From Variovorax sp. EL159 (GTDB taxonomy: Bacteria; Pseudomonadota; Gammaproteobacteria; Burkholderiales; Burkholderiaceae_C), in NCBI RefSeq assembly GCF_900100965.1, contig NZ_FMUJ01000005.1, positions 62,001-126,000 on the forward strand: a stretch of DNA of 64,000 nucleotides, read 5' to 3'. Made by a program: the position numbers and the translations under genes. This document shows positions 20,527 through 37,085 of the stretch, piece by piece. The notes under the pieces are model-generated. The model saw only the letters and a list, made by a program, of their open reading frames with translations. It searched no databases and was not told the origin of the DNA. Position 1 is the first letter of the stretch. Every line of letters starts with the position of its first letter.

Positions 20527-21324
20527 TCAATAGGTGCCCGGATAAGCACCTCCATCCGCAAGTACGTTTTGTCCGGTCAAGTAACCCGCATGCACGCTGC
20601 ATAGGAAGGCGCAGATCGCGCCGAATTCTGCCGCAGTCCCTAGTCGCCTGGCGGGAATCAACTGCTTGTGCCTTGTGACCACAGTGTCGAGATCCTCGCC
20701 GCTTCTCTCCGCCGAACCGACGAACGTTGCCTGGAGGCGGTCCGTCTCAAACGAGCCGGGGAGCAGGTTGTTGATCGTCACCCCTTTGGCGGCGATCGAT
20801 GACCTGGCGATCCCAGCCACGAATCCTGTCAACCCGCTCCGTGCGCCATTGCTCAAGCCAAGAAAGCTGATCGGCGCCTTGACCGCGCTAGAGGTGATAT
20901 TGACGATGCGGCCGAATCCTCGCGTAGCCATGCCGTCGACGCTGGCTCTGATCAATTCAACGGGTGCGAGCATGTTGGCATCGATCGCGCGGATCCACGT
21001 CTCTCGGTTCCAGGCTCGAAAGTCGCCGGGCGGTGGTCCTCCAGCGTTGGTGACAACGATATCGAATTCCGAGTGCAGAGAAAGGACGGCCTTCCGGCCC
21101 TCCGCAGTCGTGATGTCAGCCGTCACCTGCTTGACGAAGTTTCTCGAGCCCGCATCAGCTGCAACCTTCGAAAGCGCTCGGGCGGCGGCGTCCAGGCCGG
21201 CAGCTCCTCGCGCGACGATCACTACATTGGCGCCTTCGCGAACCAGCGCCTCGGCGCAGCCGTAGCCGAGCCCCTTGCTGGCACCGCACACCAGCGCTGT
21301 CTTGCCTGAAATTCCCAGGTCCAT
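20527..21324 (-). CDS. SDR family oxidoreductase lacking the usual catalytic Tyr-Lys pair
   Basis: A 265-residue SDR. The cofactor motif is CGASKGLG and the NAG motif is VTNAGGPPPG. The active-site region reads VNITSSAVKAPISFLGLSNGARSGLTGF, given here in parts: ITSSAV, then LSNGARSG, where the standard YxxxK would lie; Tyr is replaced by Ser and Lys by Arg. This matches the beta-ketoacyl-reductase-like SDR subgroup known to lack a perfect tetrad. It starts 18 bases after the stop of the aldehyde dehydrogenase gene, so the two are in one operon. Confidence 0.9.
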   Translation of the reverse strand: MDLGISGKTALVCGASKGLGYGCAEALVREGANVVIVARGAAGLDAAARALSKVAADAGSRNFVKQVTADITTAEGRKAVLSLHSEFDIVVTNAGGPPPGDFRAWNRETWIRAIDANMLAPVELIRASVDGMATRGFGRIVNITSSAVKAPISFLGLSNGARSGLTGFVAGIARSSIAAKGVTINNLLPGSFETDRLQATFVGSAERSGEDLDTVVTRHKQLIPARRLGTAAEFGAICAFLCSVHAGYLTGQNVLADGGAYPGTY

Positions 21325-22752: not shown

Positions 22753-23310
22753 TTAGTGATGGACGGACGCGTGCGCGCGCACGTAGCCTGGATACCACCG
22801 AGTGAACTTGATGGCGCCAAGAATCGCGGTCACGGTCACGGCGATGCTTAGCCAGGTAGGCACGGACGGTACGTAGAGCATCGCAATGTCCGCCGTCACC
22901 ATGAAGGCGAATGCCACAGCCCACGCTGCTGTGATGACGTCGTTGACTTTCAGGAAGGCTGGTTGCATCCAGACCTCGGGCGAGGTCTGCTCCTTTGCGT
23001 ACTGCAGCGTAAACGGGCGACGCACGACAATGGACGCAAGCACCACCAGAAAGAGACCAGCGTCGACACGCAGACGCACGGCGAGCAGCGACCATTCCGT
23101 TTGCGTGACAACCGCATAGAGCGCGAGGCCACCAAAAAGCGCTGCCGTTCCGATTTCCAGCAACTTCACTGTTCGATTCTTTGAAAAAAGATCTCGCAAG
23201 AGGAAGACTACCGCGAGGGCGGTCGCCACTCCCAATGCGGGGAGAACACCGAGCATGCGATCTAGCAGTGCAAAAGCGATGAAGGGAGCGAAGCTAAGTA
23301 ACATGCCCAT
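22753..23310 (-). CDS. Integral membrane protein of unknown function
   Basis: A 185-residue protein with about five or six hydrophobic segments (for example FAPFIAFALLDRMLG, ALGVATALAVVFLL, LFGGLALYAVV, and WLSIAVTVTAILGAI), so an inner-membrane protein. I do not recognise the family. It is the first gene of the minus-strand unit with the aldehyde dehydrogenase and SDR, and is divergent from a TetR gene; the 116 bases between them carry two operator-like sites. A role in uptake or export of the pathway compound is possible but not shown. Confidence 0.8.
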   Translation of the reverse strand: MGMLLSFAPFIAFALLDRMLGVLPALGVATALAVVFLLRDLFSKNRTVKLLEIGTAALFGGLALYAVVTQTEWSLLAVRLRVDAGLFLVVLASIVVRRPFTLQYAKEQTSPEVWMQPAFLKVNDVITAAWAVAFAFMVTADIAMLYVPSVPTWLSIAVTVTAILGAIKFTRWYPGYVRAHASVHH

Positions 23311-23333: not shown

Positions 23334-23350
23334 ATCTTTACGGTGAAAAT
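23334..23350. promoter_or_regulatory. Operator-like site 1 (ATCTTTAC type)
   Basis: ATCTTTACGGTGAAAAT: half site TTTAC, three-base spacer, then GAAAA, an imperfect match to the palindrome TTTAC-N3-GTAAA. It lies between the divergent membrane-protein and TetR genes, within 25-40 bases of the start at 23310, where a repressor could block the minus-strand promoter. Confidence 0.55.
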
Positions 23351-23380
23351 ATTGCAGCTTAGGGTCGTACCGTCAAGCAA

Positions 23381-23398
23381 AATTTACATCGTAAAGAT
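23381..23398. promoter_or_regulatory. Operator-like site 2, perfect TTTAC-N3-GTAAA palindrome
   Basis: TTTACATCGTAAA at 23383-23395 is a perfect inverted repeat with five-base arms; read on the minus strand it extends to ATCTTTACGATGTAAA. It lies 31 bases before the TetR start codon and 33 bases from site 1. Near-identical sequences occur upstream of the cleavage-oxygenase and PhzF genes. Confidence 0.65.
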
Positions 23399-23426
23399 CA
23401 AGAGAAAAGAAAGTTACACGCAAGTC

Positions 23427-24095
23427 ATGACCACTGCACGTCCTCGCGCCACTCCCAGGAAGAAGGCCGCACTACCGAAGCCCTACCACCATGGCTCATT
23501 GCACGACGCCTTGCTTGTTGCCGCGGAGACGGTGCTTCTGAGAGACGGGATTTCTGGCCTCGCGCTTCGTAATATCGCGCGCGAAGCAGGCGTTTCGGCC
23601 GCTGCGCCGAAGCACCACTTTGGCGATACAACGGGTCTACTGAGCGAGCTTGCCGCAATCGGTTTTCGACGCTTGGGTGATGTCATGGCTTCGACAATGA
23701 AGAATGCGCCTGATGAGCGAACACGGCGCAACGCGCTCGGGCGCGCCTATTTGCGCTTCGCGTACGAGAACGCAGGCATGTTCGGATTGATGTTCCGCAA
23801 CGAGATCATCAACATGGAGCATCCTGCGCTTAAAGAGGCCGCCGCTTCAATCATGGACGTAATGGTTCCGGTGATCGAAGGGAAGGCGGATGCTTTAAAG
23901 CAGTCAAAGAACCCCTTGTCCAGGATGAATGCGATGCGCGTCACGGCAGCTTGGGCTTTTGTGCATGGCCTTGCTACACTGTTGATCGATCATCGTCTGG
24001 GTGGCATCCTGAAGGCAACGTCTGCGTTCGATGATCCGGTCTCGCTCGTCGATGTCGTCTTGGAGGAGGTTCGATTGGGATTGGACAACTCGTAG
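23427..24095 (+). CDS. TetR/AcrR-family transcriptional regulator
   Basis: A 222-residue TetR-type repressor. The DNA-binding domain opens with KPYHHGSLHDALLVAAE and continues ISGLALRNIAREAGVSAAAPKHHFGD, the helix-turn-helix, here quoted in part as NIAREAGVSAAAPKHHF. The C-terminal domain follows the TetR_C_33/WHG-like pattern. I use the ATG at 23427 (MTTARP), because the longer frame from 23343 would run through both operator-like palindromes. It is probably autoregulated through these sites and is the best candidate for binding the matching sites at 35.55 and 36.75 kb. Confidence 0.88.
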   Translation: MTTARPRATPRKKAALPKPYHHGSLHDALLVAAETVLLRDGISGLALRNIAREAGVSAAAPKHHFGDTTGLLSELAAIGFRRLGDVMASTMKNAPDERTRRNALGRAYLRFAYENAGMFGLMFRNEIINMEHPALKEAAASIMDVMVPVIEGKADALKQSKNPLSRMNAMRVTAAWAFVHGLATLLIDHRLGGILKATSAFDDPVSLVDVVLEEVRLGLDNS

Positions 24096-24112
24096 CCCAA
24101 ACTTCGGCCTTC

Positions 24113-25654
24113 TTAGATCATCAGTTCGATCAAAAAGGGTCCCGTACGTTTGAAGCTGCTAGACATCAGGTCGGCACATTCATCCATCGTCGTCGCTTGC
24201 GCGGCTTCAACACCAAGTCCGTTTGCGATCTTCACCCAGTCCAGGTTGGGATTCCCGAGATCGAGCATGCTCATCGCGGTCGGGCCAGGGGTTGCACCAA
24301 CGCTCTTGTATTCGTTGATGAGAATGCGGTACTTTCGGTTGTTGAGAAGAATGGTCGTGTTTGGCAAGCGTTCACGGGCCTGTGTCCACAACGACTGAAG
24401 CGAATACATGGCCGAGCCATCCGCCTGAAGACTGATCACACGGCGTTGGCCGCCGCTGCCAATCGCAGCACCTGTAGCGACAGGCAGACCATCGCCGATG
24501 GCACCGCCGGCGAGGTGCAGCCAATCGTGCGCCGGAGCGGCGTGGGTGTGCCGATAGAAGCCCCGCCCATACGAAATGCTTTCATCCGAGACGATGGCGT
24601 TCTCAGGCATCAGCGCAGCCAAGGTTTGCGCCAATCCCTCTGGCGTTGGCGCGCCAGTCGCAACTGAAGGGCGCGGGCCAGGATCCGGCATCGCAACCTC
24701 GGGAGCGCCGAGCTCATCAACCAACGCCTGCAGTGCGGCGTCCGGATCCTGATCATTGCGCGAAAGGAAATGCAGCTGGGTCTGATCGGGATACTGCCTC
24801 GATGGCATACCCGGGTAGGCAAAGAATCCGACGGGAGGCTTCGCATTGACGAGGATGATGTGTTCGAAGTGCTTGAGCGCTTCCATGGCCTGCTCGGCAA
24901 TGTAGGGGACGCGCTCGAGCGGTAGGCGGCCGCGGCCGCGTGAGAGATGCGACGTCACTTGATCCGCCATAACGGTTGCACCGGTGGCTTGGGCGATGCG
25001 CCAAGCGAGAGTCTGGGACCCGGCGAGCACGCCACGCCCGGCGAGCAAAATCAGAACCCGCTTGCGCGAACGCAGGATGCGCGCTGCATTCTGGATGGCC
25101 AGCGGATCGACTACGGGGGCGTTTGGAATGTCCAGGGCGTCCGCGACCATGCCTCCCTCGTCCCAGGACGTGTCGGAGGGCAGGATAAGTGTCGCAACCT
25201 GCCCCGGGAACGTCCGCGCAGCCTGCACCGCAGCCGCCGCGTCGCGGCCAACGTCGGCCGACCTGCTACTCGTGTGCACCCAACCTGATACAGAGCGCGC
25301 GATGCCATCCGTGTCGGCGGTGAGCGGCGCGTCCAGCGGGCGATGGAAGGTTGCTTGATCGCCAACAATGTTTACGATCCCGCTTCGCGCACGGCGGGCG
25401 TTGTGCAGATTGGCCAGACCGTTGGCGAGACCGGGTCCGCAATGCAACAAGGTGCAGGCTGGTTTTCCCGCGATTCGGTAGTAGCCGTCGGCCATGCCGG
25501 TTACGACGTTCTCGTGCAGGCCTAGCACGCAGCGAATTCCCGGCGTTTGATCCAACGCCGCGACGAAATGCATCTCGCTGGTGCCAGGATTGGCGAAGCA
25601 GGTATCCACGCCCGAACGCAGAAGCGTGGCAACAAGACTTTTGGCACCGTTCAT
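24113..25654 (-). CDS. Thiamine-diphosphate enzyme, acetolactate synthase large-subunit-like
   Basis: A 513-residue ThDP-dependent enzyme. The N-terminal domain has the conserved Glu in LGLHENVVTGMADGY and the FANPGTSEMHFV start seen in benzoylformate decarboxylase-like members. The C-terminal ThDP domain has GDGLPVATGAAIG and the metal-binding motif in the form ADGSAMYSLQSLWTQ..., ending in ILLNN; the first Gly of GDG is Ala. Members cleave or form C-C bonds next to carbonyls. AAGGAG precedes the ATG. It is last in the unit with the TetR and CoA-ligase genes, so a 2-oxoacid or 2-hydroxyacyl step in that pathway is plausible. Confidence 0.9.
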   Translation of the reverse strand: MNGAKSLVATLLRSGVDTCFANPGTSEMHFVAALDQTPGIRCVLGLHENVVTGMADGYYRIAGKPACTLLHCGPGLANGLANLHNARRARSGIVNIVGDQATFHRPLDAPLTADTDGIARSVSGWVHTSSRSADVGRDAAAAVQAARTFPGQVATLILPSDTSWDEGGMVADALDIPNAPVVDPLAIQNAARILRSRKRVLILLAGRGVLAGSQTLAWRIAQATGATVMADQVTSHLSRGRGRLPLERVPYIAEQAMEALKHFEHIILVNAKPPVGFFAYPGMPSRQYPDQTQLHFLSRNDQDPDAALQALVDELGAPEVAMPDPGPRPSVATGAPTPEGLAQTLAALMPENAIVSDESISYGRGFYRHTHAAPAHDWLHLAGGAIGDGLPVATGAAIGSGGQRRVISLQADGSAMYSLQSLWTQARERLPNTTILLNNRKYRILINEYKSVGATPGPTAMSMLDLGNPNLDWVKIANGLGVEAAQATTMDECADLMSSSFKRTGPFLIELMI

Positions 25655-25754
25655 TTCAAGTACTCCTTGGTAGATTCCGTGTAATCGCAGGAGGCGAGGC
25701 CCCCAGATTTTTTGATGAAGTCGCAGCGCCGATTCCTGGGGAAAGGGGTAGTCG

Positions 25755-26444
25755 CTACGACGTGCTGCCTTTGATGTCGGCGGTCAAGCCGGCGATGAGA
25801 ACGTTGGCGAGTGCGCGACATTGCTCCGTTGCTTGCAGCTTCTGGCGCGGGTTCTGTTGGCGATGGACAAGCAGAGTGCTCAGGCCATGCGTGGCACTCC
25901 ATACGTGCACGGCCGCGGCCTCCGCGTAGCTTGCGGGAAGCTTGTGAGCTTGAAGGTGATCTGCAATCGCGTGCATGAGAAGCCTGAACGATGCGATGGA
26001 GGCCATCCTGAGTTCCTCGTAGTCGTCCTTGTCGGCGAGCTCGGAGCCGAACATCAGGTTGAAAAGAGCAGGTCGTTCGATTGCAAACAGGACATAACCC
26101 AGCATCAAGGCGCGCAGGCGCTCCTCGGCACTCATGCTTATCGTCAACATTTCCAGCCGTTTGGTGGTGAGTTGCTCGAAGCCCTTGGTCGCGATGGCCG
26201 CAAGCATTCCTCGCTTGTCCTGGAAATGGTGGCCTGGCGCTGTCTGAGACACTCCTGCAAGCCTGGCCGCACCGCGCAGGCTCAGCGCATCGGCTCCCTG
26301 AGTGTCGAGCAGAAAAATCCCTGCGGCGATCAGTGCGTCGCGCAAATTTCCATGGTGATAGGTATCCTGCTTGCGCAATTGATTGGGCATCCGCGTGATG
26401 CGACCAACCTTGACGGCAGAGGGGAGGTGCGCACGTTTGTTCAT
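25755..26444 (-). CDS. TetR/AcrR-family transcriptional regulator
   Basis: A 229-residue TetR-type regulator. DTYHHGNLRDALIAAG and ALSLRGAARLAGVSQTAPGHHF are the DNA-binding domain; it is clearly of the same subfamily as the TetR at 23.4 kb. The frame stays open far upstream inside the CoA-ligase gene, but the real start is probably ATG 26444 or 26390; neither has a strong Shine-Dalgarno. It lies between the CoA ligase and ThDP enzyme genes and would be co-transcribed with them, which suggests feedback control of the unit. Confidence 0.85.
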   Translation of the reverse strand: MNKRAHLPSAVKVGRITRMPNQLRKQDTYHHGNLRDALIAAGIFLLDTQGADALSLRGAARLAGVSQTAPGHHFQDKRGMLAAIATKGFEQLTTKRLEMLTISMSAEERLRALMLGYVLFAIERPALFNLMFGSELADKDDYEELRMASIASFRLLMHAIADHLQAHKLPASYAEAAAVHVWSATHGLSTLLVHRQQNPRQKLQATEQCRALANVLIAGLTADIKGSTS

Positions 26445-26488
26445 CGCGAAGGCACGGAGATGTCTTGACCATTGAGTCTCAGCCCACT

Positions 26489-28462
26489 TCAATCCGTCTG
26501 CTGATCGATGGGTGCGCAGACGACGTCGGCCGGCGCAACTTCCGCGTAGAGGGCGGAAATTGACTCGCGTCGGTTGCTGATCACGGCGCGCTGATTGATG
26601 TAGCCCTTGTCTGCGACTTCTCCAAGATCGCGGCTTGGGGCCGACGGCAGTACGAGCGCTCGTTTGATGTGCTTGCTGCTGGCTCGTCGACCTGTATTCG
26701 CGCGTTCGAGCGCTATGCGCAGAACGGTTCGCACGGCAGCGTGCGAGGCCAGCTCGACGTACCCCAGATGTGCCATGTCCGGTACAAGGGTGCGGCACGC
26801 GGCCTCATCGATAAATATCAAAGCACCAACAAAGCGACGGTTCTCCCCTGTCACCACCACGTCCCTCGCAAATGATCCCAGTGCGGCAAGGAGGCGCGCG
26901 CGGACCGAGCCGACGTGAACCCAGGTGCCGCTGTCAAGCTTGAAGTCTTCGCCGAGCCTGCCGTCGAAGCGCAGGCCCGCACCGGGGAAATCCGACTGAG
27001 CCCATTGGACAGCGTCGCCGGTGCGGTAGTACCCCTCTTCGTCGAAGGCGGCTGCGCTGGCCTGCGCGTCGCCTAAATAGTGCGAGAACAAGTGAGGTCC
27101 AGCAATCCGAAGTTCATACCTGTCTGCAACAGGCACTAGCTTGACAGACACACCTGGCAATGGAAGACCCAGCGCGTCGGCCCCATTTGACGGCCAGAAG
27201 GTGGAGATCCCTGGGCCGCAAGTCTCTGTTGCGCCGTAGCCTGCGCAGATTGCGATGCGATGGCCAACAGCCCGCTCCGCAGCGCGCTGCAGTCGATCCT
27301 CGGTATCTCGCGACAAGGCGGCGCCACCGAACGTGAGGTACTCCAATTTCGAGAAAAACCGAGTCGCGAAGGCAGGGTCACGCTCCATCTCGGTTGCCAG
27401 CAGCCCAAAGCCCAGCGGCACATTGATGTACTGACTGGGCGAGAGCTCCCGCAAGTTGGCGACCGTGGCCGCGATGGCACCCGGGGCGGGACGTCCGGCG
27501 TCGATGTGCAATGCGGTGCCCATGCGCAGACAACGATGCAACACGATATTGCCTCCCATGACGTGGTGCCAGGGCAACCAGTCGAGCGCAACTTGCTGCG
27601 TGTCCGGTATTTTTTCGAGCACGGACGCAGCGATGGCCTGGGCGGCGGCGAGCGCCGCATGCGTCATGACAACAGCCTTGGGCTTGCCGGTTGAGCCGGA
27701 AGTGAACATCACCTTTGCCAGAGCTTTGCCGTGCGCGGTCTCGTGGCCAGATTGCGCAATGGCCTCATCACCGGCGAGTAGCGCCGACCAGTCGTTGTCT
27801 GGACCCGAGCCGACGACCAGGCCAGCTGAATCCAATCCAAGTTCGGTGGCCACCGGTGCAAATGCCGTGCGCTCTTCTACGTAGAAGCATGCAGGTCCAA
27901 GCACTTGCAATAACGACCGCAGCTGTCCTCGATCGCCACCGGGGCTTGCGTAAGCCGGGGAGACAGGCGCGACCGGGATGCCCGCGTACAGCGCGGCGAA
28001 AGTCAGGAGCGCGTGCCGCACGGAGTTTCCCGTCAGCATGGCAATCGGCACAATGGGAAGACCGTGCCGCCCCGCGTGCGCTACCGACCGCCGGCGCAAC
28101 TCTCCACCGATGCGACGAATCTGCTGCCATGCTTCGGCGTACGTTACGGAATACCAGGCGCCAGAAGATTCGCGTTCGGCGAGGCAGATCGCCTCAGGCC
28201 TGGCAGCGGCCCAGACGCTGAGCCAATCGACCACGTTGGCTGCGACCGTGGTCGTGGGAGCGTCCGCCGACAGCGGTCGCTCACGCAGCCCAACGGCTGC
28301 ATCATCTGACCAGCGCAGCAGAAAGCTGCCGTCGCTGCGCTCGATGCGTTCGATCGCCGGCTGCCTGAAGGGCAATCGTCCGTAGGCCGTCGGTTCTGTG
28401 GGCGCCGGGCGCAACAGTTCGCTGCGGATCGTCCGAGCGCTCTCTGGCGAATTTTCTAGCAT
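26489..28462 (-). CDS. Feruloyl-CoA synthase-like AMP-forming acyl-CoA ligase
   Basis: A 657-residue acyl-adenylate ligase. The P-loop-like motif FTSGSTGKPKAVVMTH is at residues 253-268, followed by DWLPWHHVMGGN, which is characteristic of feruloyl-CoA synthases, then GYGATETCGPGIS and YRTGDAVQW with the ribose-binding Asp. It activates an aromatic or related acid with ATP and CoA. It starts four bases after the ABC solute-binding gene stop, so import and activation are tightly linked. Ferulate itself is not proven as substrate, because no companion hydratase/aldolase (Ech) is nearby. Confidence 0.88.
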   Translation of the reverse strand: MLENSPESARTIRSELLRPAPTEPTAYGRLPFRQPAIERIERSDGSFLLRWSDDAAVGLRERPLSADAPTTTVAANVVDWLSVWAAARPEAICLAERESSGAWYSVTYAEAWQQIRRIGGELRRRSVAHAGRHGLPIVPIAMLTGNSVRHALLTFAALYAGIPVAPVSPAYASPGGDRGQLRSLLQVLGPACFYVEERTAFAPVATELGLDSAGLVVGSGPDNDWSALLAGDEAIAQSGHETAHGKALAKVMFTSGSTGKPKAVVMTHAALAAAQAIAASVLEKIPDTQQVALDWLPWHHVMGGNIVLHRCLRMGTALHIDAGRPAPGAIAATVANLRELSPSQYINVPLGFGLLATEMERDPAFATRFFSKLEYLTFGGAALSRDTEDRLQRAAERAVGHRIAICAGYGATETCGPGISTFWPSNGADALGLPLPGVSVKLVPVADRYELRIAGPHLFSHYLGDAQASAAAFDEEGYYRTGDAVQWAQSDFPGAGLRFDGRLGEDFKLDSGTWVHVGSVRARLLAALGSFARDVVVTGENRRFVGALIFIDEAACRTLVPDMAHLGYVELASHAAVRTVLRIALERANTGRRASSKHIKRALVLPSAPSRDLGEVADKGYINQRAVISNRRESISALYAEVAPADVVCAPIDQQTD

Positions 28463-28465
28463 CGC

Positions 28466-29665
28466 TCAGTCGGAAATGATGTCACCGAACTGCTTCCACG
28501 AGGTTCCGTCGAAGCGCATCAACTTCAATTGCCTGAAGGGGCGCAAGTCATCGGGTGACGTGTTGATCTTGATGCCGGGGAGCAAACCGCCGAAGTCGAA
28601 GTCCTTCAGGCTAGAGGCTTGCTTCATCACATTCTCCCGCGTCAGGTTGTCTCCTGCTCGGCGAAGAATCTCGGCCAGAACTTGAGCTTGGATGGCCCCG
28701 CCGGTGTAGAGCGAGTTTTCAGGATCGCCATTTGGAATCTGCTTCTTCAGCATTGCGTAGTACCCCTTGACGTATGGATCTTGAGCCAATGCGGGGTCGT
28801 AGAGATTCTTTGAAAAGGACGACGAGATGGCGCCTACAGCGTTCTCGACCCCTGCCGGGCGCAAGATGCCTGGCGTCGATGACGAACCCACGGGCAGGAT
28901 CAGCGTCGGCTTCCATCCGATTTCAGCGGCCTTGCGGATCGCCTGTACCACGAACTTCCCGTTCGTGAATACGGCCAACACCGTTGCGCCGCTGCTGCGC
29001 AGGGAGACGATCTGAGAGTCAACCGTCGGGTCGGTGGCCTCGTGTGTGACGTCGGCGACCAGGTTTGCTCGCTTGTCGCCCAGGCCGCGCTTGAACCCTG
29101 CGAGGTAGTCGGTGCCAAAGTCGTCGTTGCTGCGCAGCACCGCTACTTTCGCGTTGGGTGCGGATGTGGCCACGTAGTGGCCGAAAGCAGCCCCCTCGGT
29201 TTCCCAAGCTGGCATGCCAATCATCGTGTAGGGCGCATTCTTGACGTTGACGAAGCGTGTTGCACCCGTCTGGATGAGCAGTTGCGGCACCTTGTTGGTG
29301 TTCAGGTAGCGCATCGTGGCCGCATTGCTACCGGTACCGACGGTGCCGAACACGAAGAGGACCTTGTCCTGTTCCACCAGTTGGCGTGTCAATTCGAGGG
29401 CTCGCGCGGGGCTGAGCTCGTCGTCGAGTGCGATCACGCGGACCTTGCGGCCGTTGATGCCTCCTTCGTCGTTGATCTGATTGAACTGAGCTTGCGCACC
29501 ACGCGCCAAGTCACCAAGCAACGAATACGGGCCGCTGAAGGGCGTGGTCACTCCGATCACGATGTCGGCCTTGGTGCCGCTGGGGCTATCGCTCTTCTGC
29601 GCAAGCGCCGGACTGAGCGCGAACATCGCGGCGGTGATACCTGCAAGTATTCTGAGCATCTTCAT
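28466..29665 (-). CDS. ABC transporter substrate-binding protein (Liv/HAAT family)
   Basis: A 399-residue periplasmic binding protein. The leader MKMLRILAGITAAMFALS ends at PALA-Q, and DIVIGVTTPFSGPYSLLGD starts the mature fold, a standard type I periplasmic fold of branched-chain or hydrophobic-ligand receptors. GGINGRKVRVIALDDE is another landmark. I chose the start at 29665 because GGAG precedes it; the frame opens 38 codons earlier. Four cognate transporter genes lie directly upstream. In catabolic clusters such receptors bind aromatic acids; the neighbouring CoA ligase favours that reading. Confidence 0.92.
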   Translation of the reverse strand: MKMLRILAGITAAMFALSPALAQKSDSPSGTKADIVIGVTTPFSGPYSLLGDLARGAQAQFNQINDEGGINGRKVRVIALDDELSPARALELTRQLVEQDKVLFVFGTVGTGSNAATMRYLNTNKVPQLLIQTGATRFVNVKNAPYTMIGMPAWETEGAAFGHYVATSAPNAKVAVLRSNDDFGTDYLAGFKRGLGDKRANLVADVTHEATDPTVDSQIVSLRSSGATVLAVFTNGKFVVQAIRKAAEIGWKPTLILPVGSSSTPGILRPAGVENAVGAISSSFSKNLYDPALAQDPYVKGYYAMLKKQIPNGDPENSLYTGGAIQAQVLAEILRRAGDNLTRENVMKQASSLKDFDFGGLLPGIKINTSPDDLRPFRQLKLMRFDGTSWKQFGDIISD

Positions 29666-29702
29666 GAGGACTCCATGTGAAAAGTTGTGATAGGTGGATG
29701 AA

Positions 29703-30653
29703 TCAGCGCGTAAATCGTGCGGCCCACGCTCGCATGCCGCCAACGATGCCTCTGGGAAGGAAGTAAACGGTGAGCGCAATCGCGATTCCGAAAACCGCCC
29801 ACGGAGCGGCGGTGGAAACCGCCCCCGCTGCTGTGGGCACGAAGCGGATGAAGAAGGCGCCGATCACCGCACCCGCCAACGAAGCCAGACCGCCGACCAC
29901 GATGCCAACGGCAAGAATCATGGAATCAAACAGCGAGAACGAGTCGGCCGAAACGAACTGGATCTGCATCGCAAACAGACCTCCGGCAACCCCTGCGTAG
30001 ATCGCGCTGATGGCGAATGCGAAGATCTTGGTGGCATTGACATTGATCCCCATCGAAGCGGCGGAGATCGGATGCTCACGAACCGCCTGGATGGCCCGGC
30101 CTGTGCGGTTCTTGAGCAGATGCACCAACACTGCGTATCCCAAGACAAGGCAGAGCAGGACGACGTAGTAGTACCAGGTATCGGAGCGGACTCCCCATTT
30201 GGCAATCGCATCAGGGACCTGCAATGGATCGAGCACGATGCCGTCCGAGCCGCCGGTCCAAATTGCCAACTTCGGGTGCCGCACTAACTGTGGCAACGCG
30301 GCGGCGAACGACATGGTCGTCAACGCCAGGAGAGTTCTGTCGAGGCGCTTGATGGGGTAGGCGAAAAGAAAGCTGACGACGCCGCTTACCACGCCACCGC
30401 CAATGATCGCGACCGTCCATCCGAGTGGGGTGCGCGTTACCAGAATTGCCGTTGCATAAGCGCCCAACAGCATGAAACCAGCGTGTCCGAGTGAGGCAAC
30501 ACCGCAGTAGCCAATGAGAAGGTTCAAACCGAGCAAGGTCAGGGCGAACGTCAGGGCCATCGTGAACCGAAGAGTCCACACGTCCGTCAACAGCCAAGGC
30601 AAAGCCAGCGCAAGAACCAATGCCACCAGCCGAAGTTTGTTGTCGGTGTTCAT
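29703..30653 (-). CDS. ABC transporter permease, LivM-type
   Basis: A 316-residue polytopic permease. LNLLIGYCGVASLGHAGFMLLGAY, quoted in part as GYCGVASLGHAGF, is the LivM signature, and GGLASLAGAVIGAFF near the C-terminus is the loop that contacts the ATPase. It overlaps the LivH-type gene by four bases, which supports stoichiometric production of the two permease halves. Confidence 0.92.
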   Translation of the reverse strand: MNTDNKLRLVALVLALALPWLLTDVWTLRFTMALTFALTLLGLNLLIGYCGVASLGHAGFMLLGAYATAILVTRTPLGWTVAIIGGGVVSGVVSFLFAYPIKRLDRTLLALTTMSFAAALPQLVRHPKLAIWTGGSDGIVLDPLQVPDAIAKWGVRSDTWYYYVVLLCLVLGYAVLVHLLKNRTGRAIQAVREHPISAASMGINVNATKIFAFAISAIYAGVAGGLFAMQIQFVSADSFSLFDSMILAVGIVVGGLASLAGAVIGAFFIRFVPTAAGAVSTAAPWAVFGIAIALTVYFLPRGIVGGMRAWAARFTR

Positions 30654-31525
30654 ACGCGCGAGACTCCCGGTTTGCCGAAGATGCCGGCAGGCCTGAACAG
30701 AAGGATTCCGATGATCAGAAGATTGGCAACAGTCAGCTTGAGTTCGGTGCCTATCACGTAGGCACCTAGCAGGTTCTCACCCACACCTACAAGCAAACCG
30801 CCGACGATGGCCCCCTTCGGGTGATCGATGCCGCCAAGCAGCGCTGCGGTAAAGCCGTAGATGAGCATGCTCGTCATCATTAGCGGATCGAGGTAGAGGA
30901 TCGGCGCGATCATCATTCCGGCGATGGCACCAATCACGGTCGCGATGCCCCAACCCAGACTGGCCATGTGACGCACTGAGATTCCTGTCAGACGGGCCGA
31001 GTCGGGCGAGGCTGCCGCAGCACGCATCTTCAGACCGATATCCGTGTGGCTGAAGAACAGGTAAAGAGCCAGCATGATCGCCGCAGTGACGCCATAGATG
31101 CCGAGTTGGTGTGCCGTGACGAGGCCGCCGAGATAGGACACCTTGGGCAAGGGGCTCGGAAAGGTCTGGACCTTGTATCCGAAAAGACTTCCGGAGAGGC
31201 TATGAAACAGCATGAGCAGTCCCACGAGCACCATCAACACTGATATTTCTGGAGTTCGCCGGTCTTGAAGTCTTTGCAGGAGGAGCGCGTTGATGGCATA
31301 TCCGATCGCGAAGGACGACAGCAGCGTTAGGGCGGCCGACACGGCATAACTTGCGCCTGCTGTCATGCAGGCCCACGCAATGAAGGTAGAGAACGTCGCG
31401 ATCTCGGCTTGGGCAAAGTTCGCGAGCTTGCTGCTCTTGTGAACCATGACGAGTGCCAGGGCGATGAGCGCGTATACGCATCCGGTCGCCAAGCCCGAGA
31501 AAACCTGGAAAAGAAATGCTTCCAT
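30650..31525 (-). CDS. ABC transporter permease, LivH-type
   Basis: A 291-residue permease with LATGCVYALIALALVMVHKSS at the start (quoted in part as GCVYALIALALVMVHK), ANFAQAEIATFSTFI, and the EAA-like GGIDHPKGAIVGGLLVG. The start at 31525 is preferred, since GGAGG lies five bases upstream of that ATG; the frame begins four codons before. Only one base separates it from the LivF-type gene. Confidence 0.92.
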   Translation of the reverse strand: MEAFLFQVFSGLATGCVYALIALALVMVHKSSKLANFAQAEIATFSTFIAWACMTAGASYAVSAALTLLSSFAIGYAINALLLQRLQDRRTPEISVLMVLVGLLMLFHSLSGSLFGYKVQTFPSPLPKVSYLGGLVTAHQLGIYGVTAAIMLALYLFFSHTDIGLKMRAAAASPDSARLTGISVRHMASLGWGIATVIGAIAGMMIAPILYLDPLMMTSMLIYGFTAALLGGIDHPKGAIVGGLLVGVGENLLGAYVIGTELKLTVANLLIIGILLFRPAGIFGKPGVSRV

Positions 31526-31526
31526 G

Positions 31527-32243
31527 TCAACCTCCAAGATAGGCTTGGTGCAGCGCCGAATTTGCTGCGACCTCGGCTGGACTTCCCTGCCCGATGAGTC
31601 GACCGTTCTGCATCACACAGATGTGGTGCGCCATCTCGGTTGCCAGTTCGGCGCGCTGCTCGACCAGCAGGACGCCAATCTGGCTGTCCTTCGTGATAGC
31701 GCGCAAGATGGTGTAGATCTCCTGCACGAGCAGGGGGGCCAGGCCGAACGATGGTTCGTCGAGCAGCATCATGATGGGCCGCATCATCAGCGCGCGACCG
31801 ATGGCGAGCATCTGCTGCTCGCCACCTGAAAGTAGTCCCGCCGTCTGCTTTCGGCGTTGGGCGAGGCGCGGAAAGTAGGTGAAGACGCGGTCCATATCGG
31901 TGGTGATCGTCGACTTTTCGCCGGTCGCGAGGCCGCCCAGACGAAGGTTGTCGAGGACCGAAAAGTCGACGAAGGTGCCTCGGTTTTCAGGGACATGTGC
32001 GATGCGGAGTCGACTGATGCGGCTCGCCTCGAGTTCGGCGATGCTTCGGCCTTGGAATCGGATCTCTCCACTGCGGTTGCACATGCCACTGATCGCCCGC
32101 AAGACAGTGGTCTTGCCGGCACCGTTGGCGCCCAGCAGCGCGGTCACGCGCGAAGCATTGACGTCGAACGAGATGTCGCGCAAAACTTGGACACCCCCGT
32201 AGCCTGCCGACAGCCGACGGACCGTCAGAAGTTGATCGCTCAT
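31527..32243 (-). CDS. ABC transporter ATP-binding protein, LivF-type
   Basis: A 238-residue ATPase with Walker A GANGAGKTT, the Q-loop region VPENRGTF, signature LLSGGEQQMLAI and Walker B IMMLLDEPSFGLAP. The ENRGTF element is characteristic of LivF. The gene overlaps the LivG-type gene by four bases and forms the second ATPase of the importer. Confidence 0.93.
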   Translation of the reverse strand: MSDQLLTVRRLSAGYGGVQVLRDISFDVNASRVTALLGANGAGKTTVLRAISGMCNRSGEIRFQGRSIAELEASRISRLRIAHVPENRGTFVDFSVLDNLRLGGLATGEKSTITTDMDRVFTYFPRLAQRRKQTAGLLSGGEQQMLAIGRALMMRPIMMLLDEPSFGLAPLLVQEIYTILRAITKDSQIGVLLVEQRAELATEMAHHICVMQNGRLIGQGSPAEVAANSALHQAYLGG

Positions 32244-33031
32244 GCCGGCTCTCCTAGGTACGCCCGCAACACTTCGGGATGTTCGCGCACCTCATCCGGT
32301 GAGCCTTTCGCAATGACGCGGCCGAAGTCGAGAACGACGAGTTCGTCACAGACATTCATGACGAGGTTCATGTTGTGTTCGATCAGCAGTACGGAGATGC
32401 CATCCTCGTCGCGCAACCGATGGATGTGTTGAGCGAGTTGCTCCAGTTCACCGGGCGTGAGACCTGCGGCAGGTTCATCGAGCAATAGAAGGCGCGGACC
32501 TGCTGCCAGGGCGCGTGCCATCTCCACGCGTCTCTGGACCCCCGCAGGCAACTGACCTACTGGTGTTGAGGCATGTTCCGTAAGGCTCAGCCGATCCATC
32601 GCCAGAAGCGCGCGCGCTTCGATTTCCTTCTCCTCGGCGCGTTGCTGGCGGCTGCCAAACAAGGCTGCGATGTAGCCAGAACTACCTTGGCAATGCGCGC
32701 CGATGAGTACGTTGTGCCAGACGGGAAGATGGGCAAACGAGGCCAGGTTCTGAAAGGTGCGTAGGACGCCCATGCCAGCCATCTCATACTGCCGGTGCGC
32801 CAGGACAGACCGCCCTTTAAGGCGGATGTCGCCTCGGGTCGGGGGCTGGATGCGACTGACACAGTTCACCAGAGTGGTCTTGCCGGCACCGTTGGGTCCG
32901 ATCAGGCCACAGACCGAGCGAGGCCAGACTTTGAACGAGACCTGATCCAAGGCCTTGATTCCGCCAAACTGCACGCTCAGGTCGTCGACTTCGAGAAGCG
33001 ATGTTTTCTCAGGTGATGAGGATTGGGACAA
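32240..33031 (-). CDS. ABC transporter ATP-binding protein, LivG-type
   Basis: A 263-residue ATPase with Walker A GPNGAGKTT, signature variant LPAGVQRRVEMA and Walker B LLLLDEPAAGL. The LivG-specific insertion and the RTFQNLASF Q-loop are present. The only suitable start is TTG at 33031, with AGGA six bases ahead. It is the first gene of the Liv unit; 55 bases upstream ends the dienoyl-CoA-reductase-like SDR gene. Confidence 0.92.
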   Translation of the reverse strand: MSQSSSPEKTSLLEVDDLSVQFGGIKALDQVSFKVWPRSVCGLIGPNGAGKTTLVNCVSRIQPPTRGDIRLKGRSVLAHRQYEMAGMGVLRTFQNLASFAHLPVWHNVLIGAHCQGSSGYIAALFGSRQQRAEEKEIEARALLAMDRLSLTEHASTPVGQLPAGVQRRVEMARALAAGPRLLLLDEPAAGLTPGELEQLAQHIHRLRDEDGISVLLIEHNMNLVMNVCDELVVLDFGRVIAKGSPDEVREHPEVLRAYLGEPA

Positions 33032-33086
33032 GATGGGTCCTGACCAGGGTTCGATGTGGGAGATTGATCGGCGTTGGTATCGCTGT

Positions 33087-33992
33087 TCACGCCACGCGCA
33101 TCTGCCGGTCCTTCACGTCCTGCAGCCGAATGCTGTCGCGCATGTGCGCCCACTCTTCATCGGTGTTGTTTCGATAGGCATAGAAGTTGCCGCCGGTTGC
33201 GAGAGAGTTCCCGCCATCGATCGAGATGACTTGCCCGGTCATCCAGTCGGCACCATCCGCCATGAGGAAGCCTGCGAGATTCTTGAGCTCCGACATGCGA
33301 CCGATGCGACGCATTGGATTGTTCGCTTCGCGCCCTGAGGTCTTCTTGCCGGGCGTGAGCCGGGCATTCATCCCCTCAGTGGGAAATTCGCCTGGTGCGA
33401 TTGCGTTGAGGCGGATGCCGTAGCCGCCCCATTCCACCGCGAGCGATTTGGTCATGTTGGCTACAGCCGACTTTGCCATCGCCGAAGGGACCACAAAAGG
33501 ACCGCCGTTGAAGATCCACGTCACGAGGATTGATACGACGCTACGGGTTGGCAGCTCAGCACCGTCGGCCAGAAGCTTCCGTGCTTCCTGTGCCCAACGT
33601 TTCCCCACGCTGTGGGTCACGTAGAAGGTTCCGTGCATCACCGTGCTGGCGACAGCATCGAAGCCGCGATGCGAAAGGTCCTCGGTACGGCTCACGAAGT
33701 TGCCGGCCGCGTTGTTCAGGACACCGTCAAGTGGGCCGCCGTCGTCCCAGATCGCCTGAATCATCGCGTCGACGCCTTCAGGGTCGCGGATGTTCGTGGC
33801 AAATGCCCGGACTTTGGTGCCGTGCGCCGAAGCCAGTTCCGCCGCGGTTTGCTCGACAACCTCCTGTCGCCGGCCGCACAGATAGAGGTCGGCGCCGAGC
33901 GCGGCATACATGGAAGCCATTTCCTTTCCCAGCCCGGTGCCGCCACCGGTGACAAGAATTCGCTTTCCTTTGAGCAGTCCTTCTTTCAACAT
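33087..33992 (-). CDS. SDR family protein, 2,4-dienoyl-CoA reductase-like
   Basis: A 301-residue SDR. The cofactor motif is GGGTGLGKEMA, NNAAGNF follows the NAG pattern, and the active-site stretch FVVPSAMAKSAVANMTKSLA (exactly as in 2,4-dienoyl-CoA reductases, where VVPSxxAK replaces YxxxK) is diagnostic. QVISIDGGNSLATGG closes the fold. It probably reduces an unsaturated acyl-CoA, which fits the CoA ligase encoded in the same block. AAGGA precedes the ATG. It lies between the cleavage oxygenase gene (upstream) and the Liv unit. Confidence 0.9.
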   Translation of the reverse strand: MLKEGLLKGKRILVTGGGTGLGKEMASMYAALGADLYLCGRRQEVVEQTAAELASAHGTKVRAFATNIRDPEGVDAMIQAIWDDGGPLDGVLNNAAGNFVSRTEDLSHRGFDAVASTVMHGTFYVTHSVGKRWAQEARKLLADGAELPTRSVVSILVTWIFNGGPFVVPSAMAKSAVANMTKSLAVEWGGYGIRLNAIAPGEFPTEGMNARLTPGKKTSGREANNPMRRIGRMSELKNLAGFLMADGADWMTGQVISIDGGNSLATGGNFYAYRNNTDEEWAHMRDSIRLQDVKDRQMRVA

Positions 33993-34043
33993 TGAGATTC
34001 CTTGTTTATGTAGATGCGTGTAAGTGGAGCCAATCGACCTTGA

Positions 34044-35468
34044 CTAGCCGCCGGTCTGTGCGACGTTCTTCCGCTCTATGGCGGGAAACCAGTTGCCGTG
34101 AAATCCGGCGGGCACACGGTGGGGCAACGCGGCGCTGCACACGGGGCCGTGTGCCAGGTCCAGTGCGTTGAAGACGACCAGGTCGCTGCGGTTCTCCGTT
34201 GCGCGCCAAACCACCGCAAGCAACCATCCGTCGCCTTCCCGCGCATCCGCCGCGCGCGGCACGAAAACCGGCTCGGAGACTCGATCGTCGGGATTGAAGG
34301 TGAAGTCGGAACGTTCTTCCGTGGCGTGGTCCACATGACGCAGGCCGTTGTAGCTCTGCAAACGGCCGTCGCTAGTCACCACATGGGAGGCGTACCAGCC
34401 GTGTCGATACGGAAGTCCGGAAAACCGCTCATCAATGCGTGGGAACTCGCCTGGCACCGGATCGATTCGTATGCGCGTGAAACGTCGGCGTGTATCTGCG
34501 GTGTTGAAAGTCCAGCGCACAAGATGCGCGACTGGGTTCGCATCCGGGGAAGGCGAGCCGTCTGGCAGGGGAAACAACGGTGGCACGTCGAACTCCATCA
34601 CGTCGGCATGAAGGAGGTTCGGATGATTTGGGTCTTGCCACGCATTCATCGGGTGAAATACATAGCTGGGAGGGCCTTCCCACCACTCAATGTCACGCGT
34701 ACTTCCGGTGCGCGGCATGATGCCTACACGTGTACCAAACTCAGGCTCCCAGGCGTACGGAGGCAGTCCATTTTTCGCACGTTCCTGGCTTGCCGTGAGC
34801 GGCATGACAGGGAACATCACATAGTCCTTCGTGACCATGAAGTCGTGGACCATGCTCGCGTAGGGCGCCTCAAATCGTTCGAAGCGCGTGACTTTTCCCT
34901 GCGCGGAAATCACGCCGTAACTCATGCCGGCCGACAGTTGCTCGGGTGTTCCAAATCCAAAGAAGATCAGCTCACCCGTGTGCGGGTCCGTCTTTGGGTG
35001 TGCGGTGAAGGCGCCGTTCAACCCGCTGTTGAAATCGATAGGGCCGATCGTATCGAGCGAGTCGACATCGATGTCTATCGGCAAGTGCGCTTCCTCCAGC
35101 GCAAGCATGTGACCGGCGTGGCCGATCACGTTGGTATTGGCGGTTCCATCGTCACCCGCGGAGACGGACAGCGATGTGGCACGTGGCTGACCTGTTGCCT
35201 GCTGGGCCACGAGGCGCTGCGTACGAATCCAACGGTTGCGGTAGTGCACCACGCCGTTGTCGATGCTGAAGGCATGGAGCATGCCGTCACCCAAGAACCA
35301 ATGGCTGCCGGGCACCTCGATGTATGGATTGGGGCCGTTGCGCACCAACGTGCCACGCAACTCAGGGGGCCACTTACCACTAGAAGGCAAGGGCCCGAGT
35401 TGAGTCTCGAAGCCGATAGGGTCGAGCGGCGAAGCCAACGCCGACAGAGAAGGGGCTGAATCACTCAT
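34044..35468 (-). CDS. Carotenoid oxygenase family protein (stilbene/isoeugenol/apocarotenoid cleavage type)
   Basis: A 474-residue member of the RPE65/carotenoid cleavage oxygenase family, which uses iron held by four histidines to cleave C=C bonds. The four expected His regions are visible: TAHPKTDPHTGE, MVHDFMVTKDYVMFPV, FHPMNAWQDPNHPN, and GFHGNWFPA at the end. ELRGTLVRNGPNPYIEVPGSHWF is the N-terminal family block, quoted here as RNGPNPYIE and HWFLGDGMLHA. Bacterial members cleave lignostilbenes, resveratrol, isoeugenol or apocarotenals. The start at 35468 follows CAGGAGA. An ATCTTTAC operator-like site lies 85 bases upstream. The product aldehyde could feed the aldehyde dehydrogenase at 21-22 kb. 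Confidence 0.92.
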   Translation of the reverse strand: MSDSAPSLSALASPLDPIGFETQLGPLPSSGKWPPELRGTLVRNGPNPYIEVPGSHWFLGDGMLHAFSIDNGVVHYRNRWIRTQRLVAQQATGQPRATSLSVSAGDDGTANTNVIGHAGHMLALEEAHLPIDIDVDSLDTIGPIDFNSGLNGAFTAHPKTDPHTGELIFFGFGTPEQLSAGMSYGVISAQGKVTRFERFEAPYASMVHDFMVTKDYVMFPVMPLTASQERAKNGLPPYAWEPEFGTRVGIMPRTGSTRDIEWWEGPPSYVFHPMNAWQDPNHPNLLHADVMEFDVPPLFPLPDGSPSPDANPVAHLVRWTFNTADTRRRFTRIRIDPVPGEFPRIDERFSGLPYRHGWYASHVVTSDGRLQSYNGLRHVDHATEERSDFTFNPDDRVSEPVFVPRAADAREGDGWLLAVVWRATENRSDLVVFNALDLAHGPVCSAALPHRVPAGFHGNWFPAIERKNVAQTGG

Positions 35469-35550
35469 CGGATCTCCTGAGGTGCGCATTTGTGGTCGGA
35501 CTGCAGATGCAGGCCATTTCCGTTTGAGACAGGTGCAATGTAGTTTTCAA

Positions 35551-35567
35551 TCTTTACGATGTCAACT
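35551..35567. promoter_or_regulatory. Operator-like site 3 (ATCTTTAC type), upstream of the cleavage oxygenase
   Basis: TTTACGATGTCAA at 35553-35565, preceded by ATC, matches the TTTAC-N3-GTAAA palindrome found at the TetR gene with one mismatch. It is 85 bases upstream of the oxygenase start codon, at a distance suited to promoter overlap. Confidence 0.6.
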
Positions 35568-35719
35568 TGGTATTAACCTCTATCCATGACGGCAAGCGGC
35601 GGCGCCGATCTGCTAGTGGCTCTCGTGAATGAAGTGGCGTGAAGCGAAGCGTTGTCGCAAGCTGTCGAAAGCAGGAATCCGTGGTTCGTGCAGTCGCACT
35701 CTTCGTCCACTGGTTGGGC

Positions 35720-36670
35720 TTAGAGGGTGAAGCTTCCTTCGAAGACGGCGACGCATCGACCACCAACGCGTGTACGCGTAACCCCAAGGTGCGACTGCGC
35801 TCGGGTTAACAGCAAACTTGGGCGTCCCATGTCTTCACCTTGACGAATGCGGAGGTGAGTCTCCGAATCTCCGCTGATTTCTGTAAGCAAAGCGGTCAAC
35901 GCTGCAGCAGCGCTGCCTGTCGCTGGATCCTCCACCATACGGCGCGTGAACATTCGCGCGTGCACATCGCAGCCGGTGTCCGCTCCGACGTCGTGCGTAT
36001 AGACATAGATGGCTTGTGCGCCATCCAGCGGGAAGACTTTTTCAAAGGACTGGCGATCAGGGAGAACTCGGCGCAGTGCCGCACGCGACTTGACTTCGAA
36101 GACCAGTGACGGGAGGCCCGCGGAGACCACCTGAGGCAGATTTCTCTCCGTGGAAACGTCATCCGCCGTCAGGCCTAGACAAGCGGCTGCAAGTGCGGGT
36201 GAAACTTCGGAGCGTCGAGCGAGGGGCTCAGGGGAGAGGAGTTCAGCACCGACGACGGAATCGTTTTCCCATATGAGCTCTATCTGCACCAGGCCTGCAG
36301 CCTCTTCAAACACGAGATTCTTCAAGGGGGGATCGCCACGGTCCGTCGCTCTTCTAGCCAAGATGAACGCCGTACCGATGTTCGGGTGTCCAGCGAATGG
36401 CACCTCACGATCGGGCGTGAAGATTCGGACATGTGCGGTGTGGGAGCCATCGCGCGGGGGGAAGACAAAGGTCGTCTCAACGTAGTTGAACTCCCTGGCG
36501 ATCGTTTGCATTTGCTCCGCCGACAGGCCCTCGGCTTCGAGGACGACGGCTAACGGGTTTCCGCTAAACATGCCGTCGGTGAATACGTCGACGGTGGCGT
36601 AGCGGCGTCTTCTGGGTAGCGACTGGTTTTTTTCACGCGGCGCTGCCGACGAAGGGGATGGGTCGCCCAT
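35720..36670 (-). CDS. PhzF family phenazine-biosynthesis-like protein (isomerase fold)
   Basis: A 316-residue PhzF/YddE-type protein with the diaminopimelate-epimerase fold. The catalytic Glu is in EFNYVETTFVF, and PFAGHPNIGTAF and VEDPATGSAAAALTALL are the other signatures. ATVDVFTDGMFSGNPLAVV begins the fold. The start at 36670 follows AAGGAGA. Outside phenazine clusters these proteins act as isomerases of unknown specificity; here the gene shares an operator-like site with the cleavage oxygenase and may isomerise a pathway intermediate. Confidence 0.92.
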   Translation of the reverse strand: MGDPSPSSAAPREKNQSLPRRRRYATVDVFTDGMFSGNPLAVVLEAEGLSAEQMQTIAREFNYVETTFVFPPRDGSHTAHVRIFTPDREVPFAGHPNIGTAFILARRATDRGDPPLKNLVFEEAAGLVQIELIWENDSVVGAELLSPEPLARRSEVSPALAAACLGLTADDVSTERNLPQVVSAGLPSLVFEVKSRAALRRVLPDRQSFEKVFPLDGAQAIYVYTHDVGADTGCDVHARMFTRRMVEDPATGSAAAALTALLTEISGDSETHLRIRQGEDMGRPSLLLTRAQSHLGVTRTRVGGRCVAVFEGSFTL

Positions 36671-37085
36671 GAGATCTCCTTTGGACACGGCCTTGGCTGC
36701 GGACGCAGAGATTGCCGTCATCGGGATGCAGTTTAGCTCAAATCTTTACATCGTCAATATTGCGTCGGTGGCAACGCCTGCGTGCGATTTCCTTGCGTCC
36801 CGAGGCTCCAGTCCCGCTCGGGTCAGGGATCTGTTCGCCGTTACTCGAAGGGATGTCCTGAACTTCCCGCTCGAGCGTCTCCCACGGAAGTGAGCAGAGG
36901 GAGCCGCTCTCTTCGTGACATGAGGCGTCGAAAGCGGCCCGGTAAGTGGACGCCGCATGCTGGCTTCAGCCGCTCCACTCAGGATCGCCGGTCGGCTCCT
37001 TGTGTCGCTGTGGCTGGGCCGGCATCGTGAAAACGTGGGCTTCGACCGACGCAGAGCCGACCGAGCAAGAGATCTTTGGGGGTGA
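36671..37085. other. Gene-free interval upstream of the PhzF gene
   Basis: No gene with family features is seen in this 415-base stretch on either strand. It holds operator-like site 4 (36743-36759), close to the PhzF start, and otherwise shows nothing recognisable. The convergent side is the end of the SDR gene at 37086. Confidence 0.5.
36743..36759. promoter_or_regulatory. Operator-like site 4 (ATCTTTAC type), upstream of the PhzF gene
   Basis: TTTACATCGTCAA at 36745-36757, preceded by ATC, is a one-mismatch version of the palindrome at the TetR promoter. It is 75 bases upstream of the PhzF start codon, much as site 3 is placed for the oxygenase gene. Confidence 0.6.

Follow-up and report, generated by a model that had tools for sequence, protein, structure and literature searches.

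A putative TetR regulon with four shared operators at an RPE65-family oxygenase gene cluster of Variovorax sp. EL159, and its apparent specificity switch beside a sister regulon

In a 64-kb stretch of the genome of the soil bacterium Variovorax sp. EL159 (the window hereafter, meaning the whole stretch of DNA analysed) the TetR-family protein TetR1 is encoded on the + strand (23427..24095; 222 amino acids, TetR_N and TetR_C_33 domains, recognition helix VSAAAPKHHF), next to a large group of enzyme and transport genes on the - strand. Judged from sequence, TetR1 is very probably an inducible repressor acting through four operators (O1-O4) at three promoters, a diverged and rearranged relative of a TetR-RPE65-VC0807 module whose usual type is found on contig C8 of the same genome, with a recognition helix and operators that should keep the two regulons apart. 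In kind this would be an ordinary TetR regulon, unusual for an apparent natural switch of specificity beside a sister regulon. A first-pass annotation of the window had proposed a regulon joining a TetR gene to membrane-protein, oxygenase and PhzF genes through near-identical sites, a proposal that the sequence evidence supports well.

Four copies of a 19-bp palindrome, ATCTTTAC-N3-GTAAAGAT, are read at positions 23334, 23380, 35550 and 36742 with 2, 2, 3 and 2 mismatches, respectively. O1 (ATCTTTACGGTGAAAATAT; 23334-23352, + strand) was recognised by palindrome scan, weight matrix and promoter position, and O2 (AAATTTACATCGTAAAGAT; 23380-23398, - strand) by palindrome scan, matrix and promoter layout. 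Spaced 46 bp apart, both lie in the 116-base gap between the membrane-protein gene and tetR1 (ATG 23310 to ATG 23427), whose size had been given correctly. In O2, ATCTTTAC stands on the - strand and the core is the perfect TTTAC-N3-GTAAA palindrome that had been singled out at the outset. O3 (ATCTTTACGATGTCAACTT; 35550-35568, + strand) and O4 (ATCTTTACATCGTCAATAT; 36742-36760, + strand), two of the four operators, lie 12-13 kb from tetR1 over the -35 boxes of the oxygenase and PhzF promoters. All four sites named by the first-pass annotation are present, with coordinates correct to within one base and a motif that is a 19-bp palindrome.

A scan of the window for ATCTTTAC-N3-GTMAA with up to 2 mismatches returned nine matches at six places, these being O1-O4 (three on both strands) together with 24228 and 45214 (2 mismatches each), while 100 shuffles gave a mean of 0.58 matches and a maximum of 3. 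The exact core TTTAC-N3-GTMAA occurs at five places in the whole genome (7,002,411 bases), three of them in the window. Allowing up to 3 mismatches, the full palindrome is found genome-wide at six places, namely O1-O4 and a single place next to each of the two TetR paralogues on contigs C6 and C8, the reversed-pattern control giving 2 per strand. A sequence model built on 32 sites of the Ala59 type (named for a TetR residue, see below) returned five places genome-wide at E<=10, O1-O4 and the C6 operator, with 150 of 2121 first-look candidates scored; the model being short, its E-values are weak (best 0.113) and the ranking is what counts. By the genome-wide check that the first-pass annotation had named, the strict palindrome is rare, and O1-O4 are far from chance occurrence.

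Scanning 20.4-37.3 kb for sigma-70 promoters gave three matches, every one at an operator and on the - strand. The first, TTGACG-17-AATATT (23348..23376, with TG before the second hexamer), lies between O2 and O1 ahead of the membrane-protein gene, O1 overlapping its -10 element by 5 bases and O2 ending 3 bp upstream of its -35. The oxygenase gene is preceded by TTGACA-17-TACATT (35537..35565) and the PhzF-family gene by TTGACG-16-TAAACT (36730..36757). That the only three promoter-like sites of this region overlap or flank O1-O4 speaks for a shared regulon. Several observations count against it. Shuffled versions of the region average 4.0 promoter matches, so that the number found, which is not above chance, is uninformative and position on the operators is what counts; no promoter for tetR1 itself was found in the same scan; and a looser family pattern with 1 mismatch gave 15 places genome-wide (3 in the reversed control), 8 of them in addition to O1-O4, the pair of operators on C8 and the single one on C6.

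A TetR protein is indeed encoded beside O1 and O2. TetR1 scores 28.8 bits for TetR_N PF00440 (cut-off 24) and 50.1 bits for PF13305 (cut-off 26.8), with a predicted structure (mean pLDDT, predicted local distance difference test, 87.1) that has helices at 25-40, 47-54 and 60-65 and matches TetR-family PDB entries, giving the N-terminal helix-turn-helix and the all-helical ligand domain behind it that define the family. Palindromic putative operators lie upstream of its own gene, at promoters. In tetO, the operator of the classical system, the palindrome likewise spans 19 bp and, as here, has C/G two bases from its centre. The accessible part of PMC12997858 holds nothing on the TetR1 regulator.

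In the mechanism proposed here, TetR1 would bind the palindrome at O1-O4 and repress all three promoters. The promoter between O2 and O1 would drive the membrane-protein, aldehyde dehydrogenase and short-chain dehydrogenase genes, with O1 and O2 probably also serving autoregulation. The oxygenase promoter, with O3 over its -35 box, probably reads through a further short-chain dehydrogenase, an ATP-binding cassette (ABC) transporter, an acyl-CoA ligase, a second TetR protein (TetR2) and a thiamine-pyrophosphate (TPP) enzyme, while O4 over its -35 box would control the PhzF promoter. A compound of the pathway would release TetR1. An alternative that fares better than the others, even if it is unlikely, is that TetR1 controls the membrane-protein, oxygenase and PhzF promoters only, the transporter, ligase and TPP-enzyme genes having promoters of their own outside the regulon. 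Such promoters would have room in the gaps that flank TetR2 (44 and 100 bases) and in those of about 50 bases after the oxygenase and first short-chain dehydrogenase genes, and the scan detects only sigma-70-like sites; the genes are nevertheless co-directional, overlapping or closely spaced, and the sigma-70 scan showed nothing promoter-like on the - strand between 34.0 and 24.1 kb.

Comparable palindromes accompany TetR homologues well beyond the genus. From 111 TetR entries, 91 remained without near-duplicates and 90 of these had upstream DNA, including TetR1 (two sites), TetR2 (none) and the two paralogues of this genome. A palindrome was found upstream of 82 of the 90 homologues and at least two in 60, against 38 and 2, respectively, of 2971 control stretches, which may themselves include real distal operators; the rule used (10 or more of 12 loose positions, 5 or more of 8 paired ones) was set after the genus sites had been viewed. 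The palindrome-bearing homologues include those of Rhodoferax, Burkholderia, Caballeronia, Rhizobium, Devosia and gammaproteobacterial metagenome-assembled genomes (MAGs), the named loci being the 80 best among 254 relatives that a search with peptide patterns, covering part of the recognition helix, had brought up. Two more distant homologues (33-34% identical) come from MAGs labelled Candidatus Gracilibacteria and Hydrococcus, labels that may reflect mis-binned contigs; paired palindromes were seen at one (L129), and at the other (L132) none was found.

A weight matrix built from 67 sites of Ala59-type regulators in other genomes, with the window and its own genome left out, places O4 (29.8 bits), O1 (26.1), O2 (25.8) and O3 (25.6) at the top of the window with the next match at 8.1, the best background scores being 11.2 bits in 220 kb of other stretches of this genome and 16.2 in 20 Markov-shuffled windows. 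It is improbable that O1-O4 are real operators bound mainly by TetR2 or the C8 paralogue, with TetR1 secondary. TetR2 does share the two Pfam domains and sits in the putative operon, and with a Thr59 matrix (68 sites) O1-O4 again lead the window, scoring 15.0-23.5 bits against 11.1 for the next match; however, O1 and O2 lie in the upstream gap of tetR1 itself at the 46-bp spacing of its homologues, TetR2 has an unsure tree position and no palindrome found in its upstream region, and the C8 operators score 31.3 and 33.8 bits by the Thr59 matrix, far above the window sites, and 18.3 and 22.4 bits by the Ala59 matrix. Slightly less probable again is an activating or dual role for TetR1. Activators, too, use positions immediately ahead of a -35 box, where O2 lies, but O1, O3 and O4 overlap -10 or -35 elements in the layout of repression. 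A chance motif, or one owed to promoter similarity, has next to no probability: the second half-sites of O3 and O4 do contain TTGAC, the -35 core, yet 19-bp palindromes at 25-30 bits stand far above that 220-kb background, are conserved next to tetR homologues in several genera and are rare genome-wide.

Reading TetR1 as a repressor derived from a conserved module draws on its relatives. A search of 101 Variovorax genomes, this one included, found TetR homologues up to 67% identical, and 20 comparison stretches were taken from the closest homologues and the two paralogues of this genome. In 19 of them (the C8 copy and the 18 closest relatives, L036-L054) the RPE65 gene is divergent from tetR without exception, with a VC0807 gene matched in 12 and two palindromes at 46-bp spacing in 18, the remaining stretch (L054) having a TTGAC-type pair at 55 bp. 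TetR homologues divergent from the same oxygenase family, with paired palindromes, lend further support to the regulon first proposed. The twentieth stretch surrounds the C6 paralogue (39% identical), where sites are present with no RPE65 match, the palindrome at G000:C6:131699-131717 (loci L055 and L059) reading ATCTTGAC-N3-GTTTAGAT; over these 20 kb the other 21 window query proteins were unmatched, the PhzF result excepted.

The commonest operator pair of the close relatives is ATCTTTCC-N3-GGAAATAT with ATTTTTCC-N3-GGTAAGAT. Between the operators, every one of the 10 displayed loci with 46-bp spacing, that of the window among them, has TTGACN-17-ATATT, TTGACN standing three bases past the first operator and the -10, 17 bp on, drawing on the first bases of the second; where the spacing is 51-55 bp (four loci), TTGACN is kept and that -10 is not, a layout drawn from 14 chosen loci without a shuffled control. 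Spacings are 46 bp in most of TetR1's clade, 49 in several Burkholderia-type rows and 20-57 elsewhere, and seem to follow the promoter between the sites. Helical phasing of the pair was considered and rejected, as the spacings share no common phase.

Many relatives show the arrangement tetR, promoter, RPE65, VC0807. The O1/O2 promoter of the window directly precedes the VC0807-like gene, and the RPE65 gene lies about 12 kb off with a single operator, the simplest reading being that RPE65 was removed from between promoter and VC0807. The window has the 46-bp palindrome pair with promoter-like sequence between; what stands divergent from tetR1 is the VC0807-like gene, and because RPE65 is not in that place the window holds a rearranged derivative rather than a standard member. 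TetR1 groups with the module TetRs in a 34-row clade (SH-aLRT, the Shimodaira-Hasegawa-like approximate likelihood-ratio test, 98, in a quick tree without bootstrap). Further afield, among 61 de-duplicated and mostly distant loci with at least 2.3 kb upstream (27 further loci with less upstream DNA being left out), the genes divergent from tetR include RPE65 in 10, VC0807 in 7, both in 3 and neither in 41; the wider TetR-operator family therefore also sits beside other genes. Ten annotated neighbour genes in relatives, among them pirin, FMN reductase and bestrophin-like genes, suggest no common pathway. In Roseomonas aerilata a bestrophin-like membrane gene (L090, 1716-2492) lies behind a VC0807-like gene divergent from the TetR homologue, possibly a hint at the membrane protein's role. 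No published name for the TetR-RPE65-VC0807 module was found.

The recognition helix is VSHTAPKHHF in most of the clade, TetR1 alone of the 34 rows having Ala-Ala for His-Thr at 58-59. No other row of the clade has Ala59 or was scored A-type: at the corresponding operator base the eight half-sites of TetR1 in the window carry A seven times, T once and C never, while every clade mate has C in at least one half-site found, leaving TetR1's sites the only ones without CC half-sites. Across the wider family, residue 59 and operator base agree in 65 of 67 rows (35 Ala/A and 30 Thr/C), 19 of 86 rows being left out for ties, no site or another residue, and no other of the 222 positions tells as much about that base as residue 59 (0.831 bits). 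Residues 58 and 59 sit just before helix 60-65 in the predicted structure and would by alignment correspond to Gln38 and Pro39 of TetR, H64 aligning with TetR His44; in the accessible text of PMC7102968, Gln38 and Pro39 contact bases and are important for recognition specificity. On balance, these data tip towards a complete natural rewiring on the TetR1 branch, in which the change of 58-59 from His-Thr to Ala-Ala and the change of all operators, those of the two distant promoters drawn into the regulon included, from TTTCC to TTTAC/TTGAC went together and insulated a catabolic island from the C8 sister regulon. The helix AAAPKHHF as opposed to HTAPKHHF, with the TTTAC/TTGAC half-sites, should then keep the two regulons apart.

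Several observations pull the other way. Several clade mates have mixed TTTAC/CC sites, two Thr59 rows have A-type sites (the two exceptions above), and 16 Thr/Ala rows had tied sites or none. Positions that follow the tree are nearly as informative as residue 59 (position 101, 0.797 bits), and within the stretch 18-75 TetR1 is also unique among the 34 rows at 26, 31 and 49. Only three independent supported pairs could be formed, of which on average 2.3 changed in the predicted direction, 0.7 were unchanged and 0 went the opposite way; the sign test is not significant (p 0.25-0.5), there being too few independent changes for the residue-59 link to reach significance. In AmtR an alanine at the Pro39 place is described as having a minor role only, in the part of PMC2723105 that was available. 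Cross-binding between the regulons is possible, moreover, to go by the matrix scores: O1-O4 come first in the window by the Thr59 matrix too, and by the Ala59 matrix the operators on C8 and C6 reach 18-23 bits.

As to origin, the window copy may have arisen by duplication or arrived with its low-GC region. In the specificity tree, which was built without helix residues, TetR1 is nearest a Variovorax MAG (L062, fork support 91) and not the C8 copy, a position that does not establish duplication within the strain and is compatible with arrival in the low-GC region. The G+C content of the window is 0.602, that of the stretch just after it 0.584, and 10 of 11 other stretches of the genome lie at 0.622-0.695; because of its low G+C, this region of contig C10, and the cluster with it, was perhaps acquired.

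The oxygenase (34044..35468, - strand, ATG 35468) belongs to the RPE65/carotenoid-oxygenase family and is one of four RPE65 genes in the genome, of which the C6 and C7 paralogues are not TetR-linked and showed no operator in the palindrome or sequence-model genome scans. It falls into a 21-row clade whose other 20 members are TetR-linked (support 97, quick tree) and is therefore the expected kind of enzyme, now detached. H157, H208, H272 and H457 are near-invariant in 38 sequences and, by analogy with the family, would be the metal ligands. A lignostilbene dioxygenase identity was tried and rejected, as equivalents of Tyr101 and Lys134, which bind the substrate 4-hydroxyl in lignostilbene dioxygenase according to the accessible portion of PMC8191317, are lacking: in an alignment with these enzymes the Tyr101 segment is absent and Glu125 stands at the Lys134 place, where 36 of the 38 sequences have Glu. 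The lignostilbene dioxygenase NCBIfam scores 340.6 bits, under its curated cut-off of 800. From the enzyme set, a ring- or terpene-derived alkene as substrate is only a guess.

The first gene behind the O1/O2 promoter encodes the VC0807-like membrane protein (22753..23310, -; 37.3 bits, under the family cut-off of 65), with VC0807 linked to TetR and RPE65 in relatives. It is followed after 15 bases by the aldehyde dehydrogenase gene (21343..22737, -) and then by a short-chain dehydrogenase gene identified by family search (20527..21324, -). The - strand run from 35468 to 24113 starts with the oxygenase gene and continues, 51 bases behind it, with a short-chain dehydrogenase (33087..33992, -), a branched-chain-amino-acid-type ABC transporter (28466..33031, -; two ATPases, two permeases and a binding protein), the acyl-CoA ligase (26489..28462, -), of which several plasmid relatives, 34-39% identical, are annotated as feruloyl-CoA synthase, TetR2 (25755..26444, -) and a TPP enzyme assigned to the PRK07586 family by family search (24113..25654, -). 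The PhzF-family isomerase (35720..36670, -; ATG 36670) has its own site, O4. TetR2, overlooked by the first-pass annotation, surfaced as a match in the TetR1 homologue search, shares 29% identity with TetR1 when aligned and 38% within the matched part, and lies in the frame of the open reading frame 25755-26798; for an overlapping one in another frame, 25651-26472, neither Pfam nor NCBIfam gave a match. Distant from the four operators, the window also holds a LysR gene (42008-42925, -) and, for the second time, genes of a branched-chain-amino-acid-type binding protein and ATPase (43528-45524, +).

With the ligase as sole probe, the collections searched yielded no intact relative of the long gene run. 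Among 399 family genomes only this one matched at E<=1e-120, and at E<=1e-80 it was one of 14 of 369 class genomes, the others at most 40% identical, at most 3 candidates per listed genome being scored in both searches; 26 plasmid records matched, all below 60% identity.

These results define a TetR-operator family readable from sequence across Proteobacteria, of which no published description was found among titles and abstract openings, subscription journals being mostly outside coverage. They point to TetR1 and its sites as the likely regulator and operator of a carotenoid-oxygenase branch that is uncharacterised, and offer the operators as a route to the substrate, through compounds that would release TetR1. 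Two related regulators with two operator sets in one genome form a compact natural pair for the study of how repressor specificity diverges without cross-talk. The system stands out for a cleanly defined operator family and for what looks like a switch of specificity next to a sister regulon.

Among known systems, the autoregulated local repressors of the TetR/tetO type share with TetR1 the TetR_N domain, a 19-bp palindrome and a divergent layout with paired operators at promoters, the TetR1 system differing in its TetR_C_33 ligand domain, in having catabolic rather than efflux targets and in the 12-13 kb that separate two of its four operators from tetR1. The best match of TetR1 in both sequence and fold is PDB 3on2, a TetR-family protein of Rhodococcus RHA1, at 33-36% identity over the fold match. 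The oxygenase resembles LsdA and LSD4 (PDB 6ojr and kin) in superfamily PF03055, in its histidines and in keeping the Phe59 place, and differs in the Tyr101 and Lys134 equivalents. With the module of Variovorax and near kin the window shares the TetR homologue, the 46-bp operator pair, the promoter-like sequence between, the oxygenase and the membrane protein; in the window, unlike the module, the detached oxygenase heads a long gene run, the PhzF, aldehyde dehydrogenase, short-chain dehydrogenase, ABC transporter, ligase and TPP-enzyme genes have been added, the operators are of the TTTAC/TTGAC and not the TTTCC type, and the helix carries AA in place of HT.

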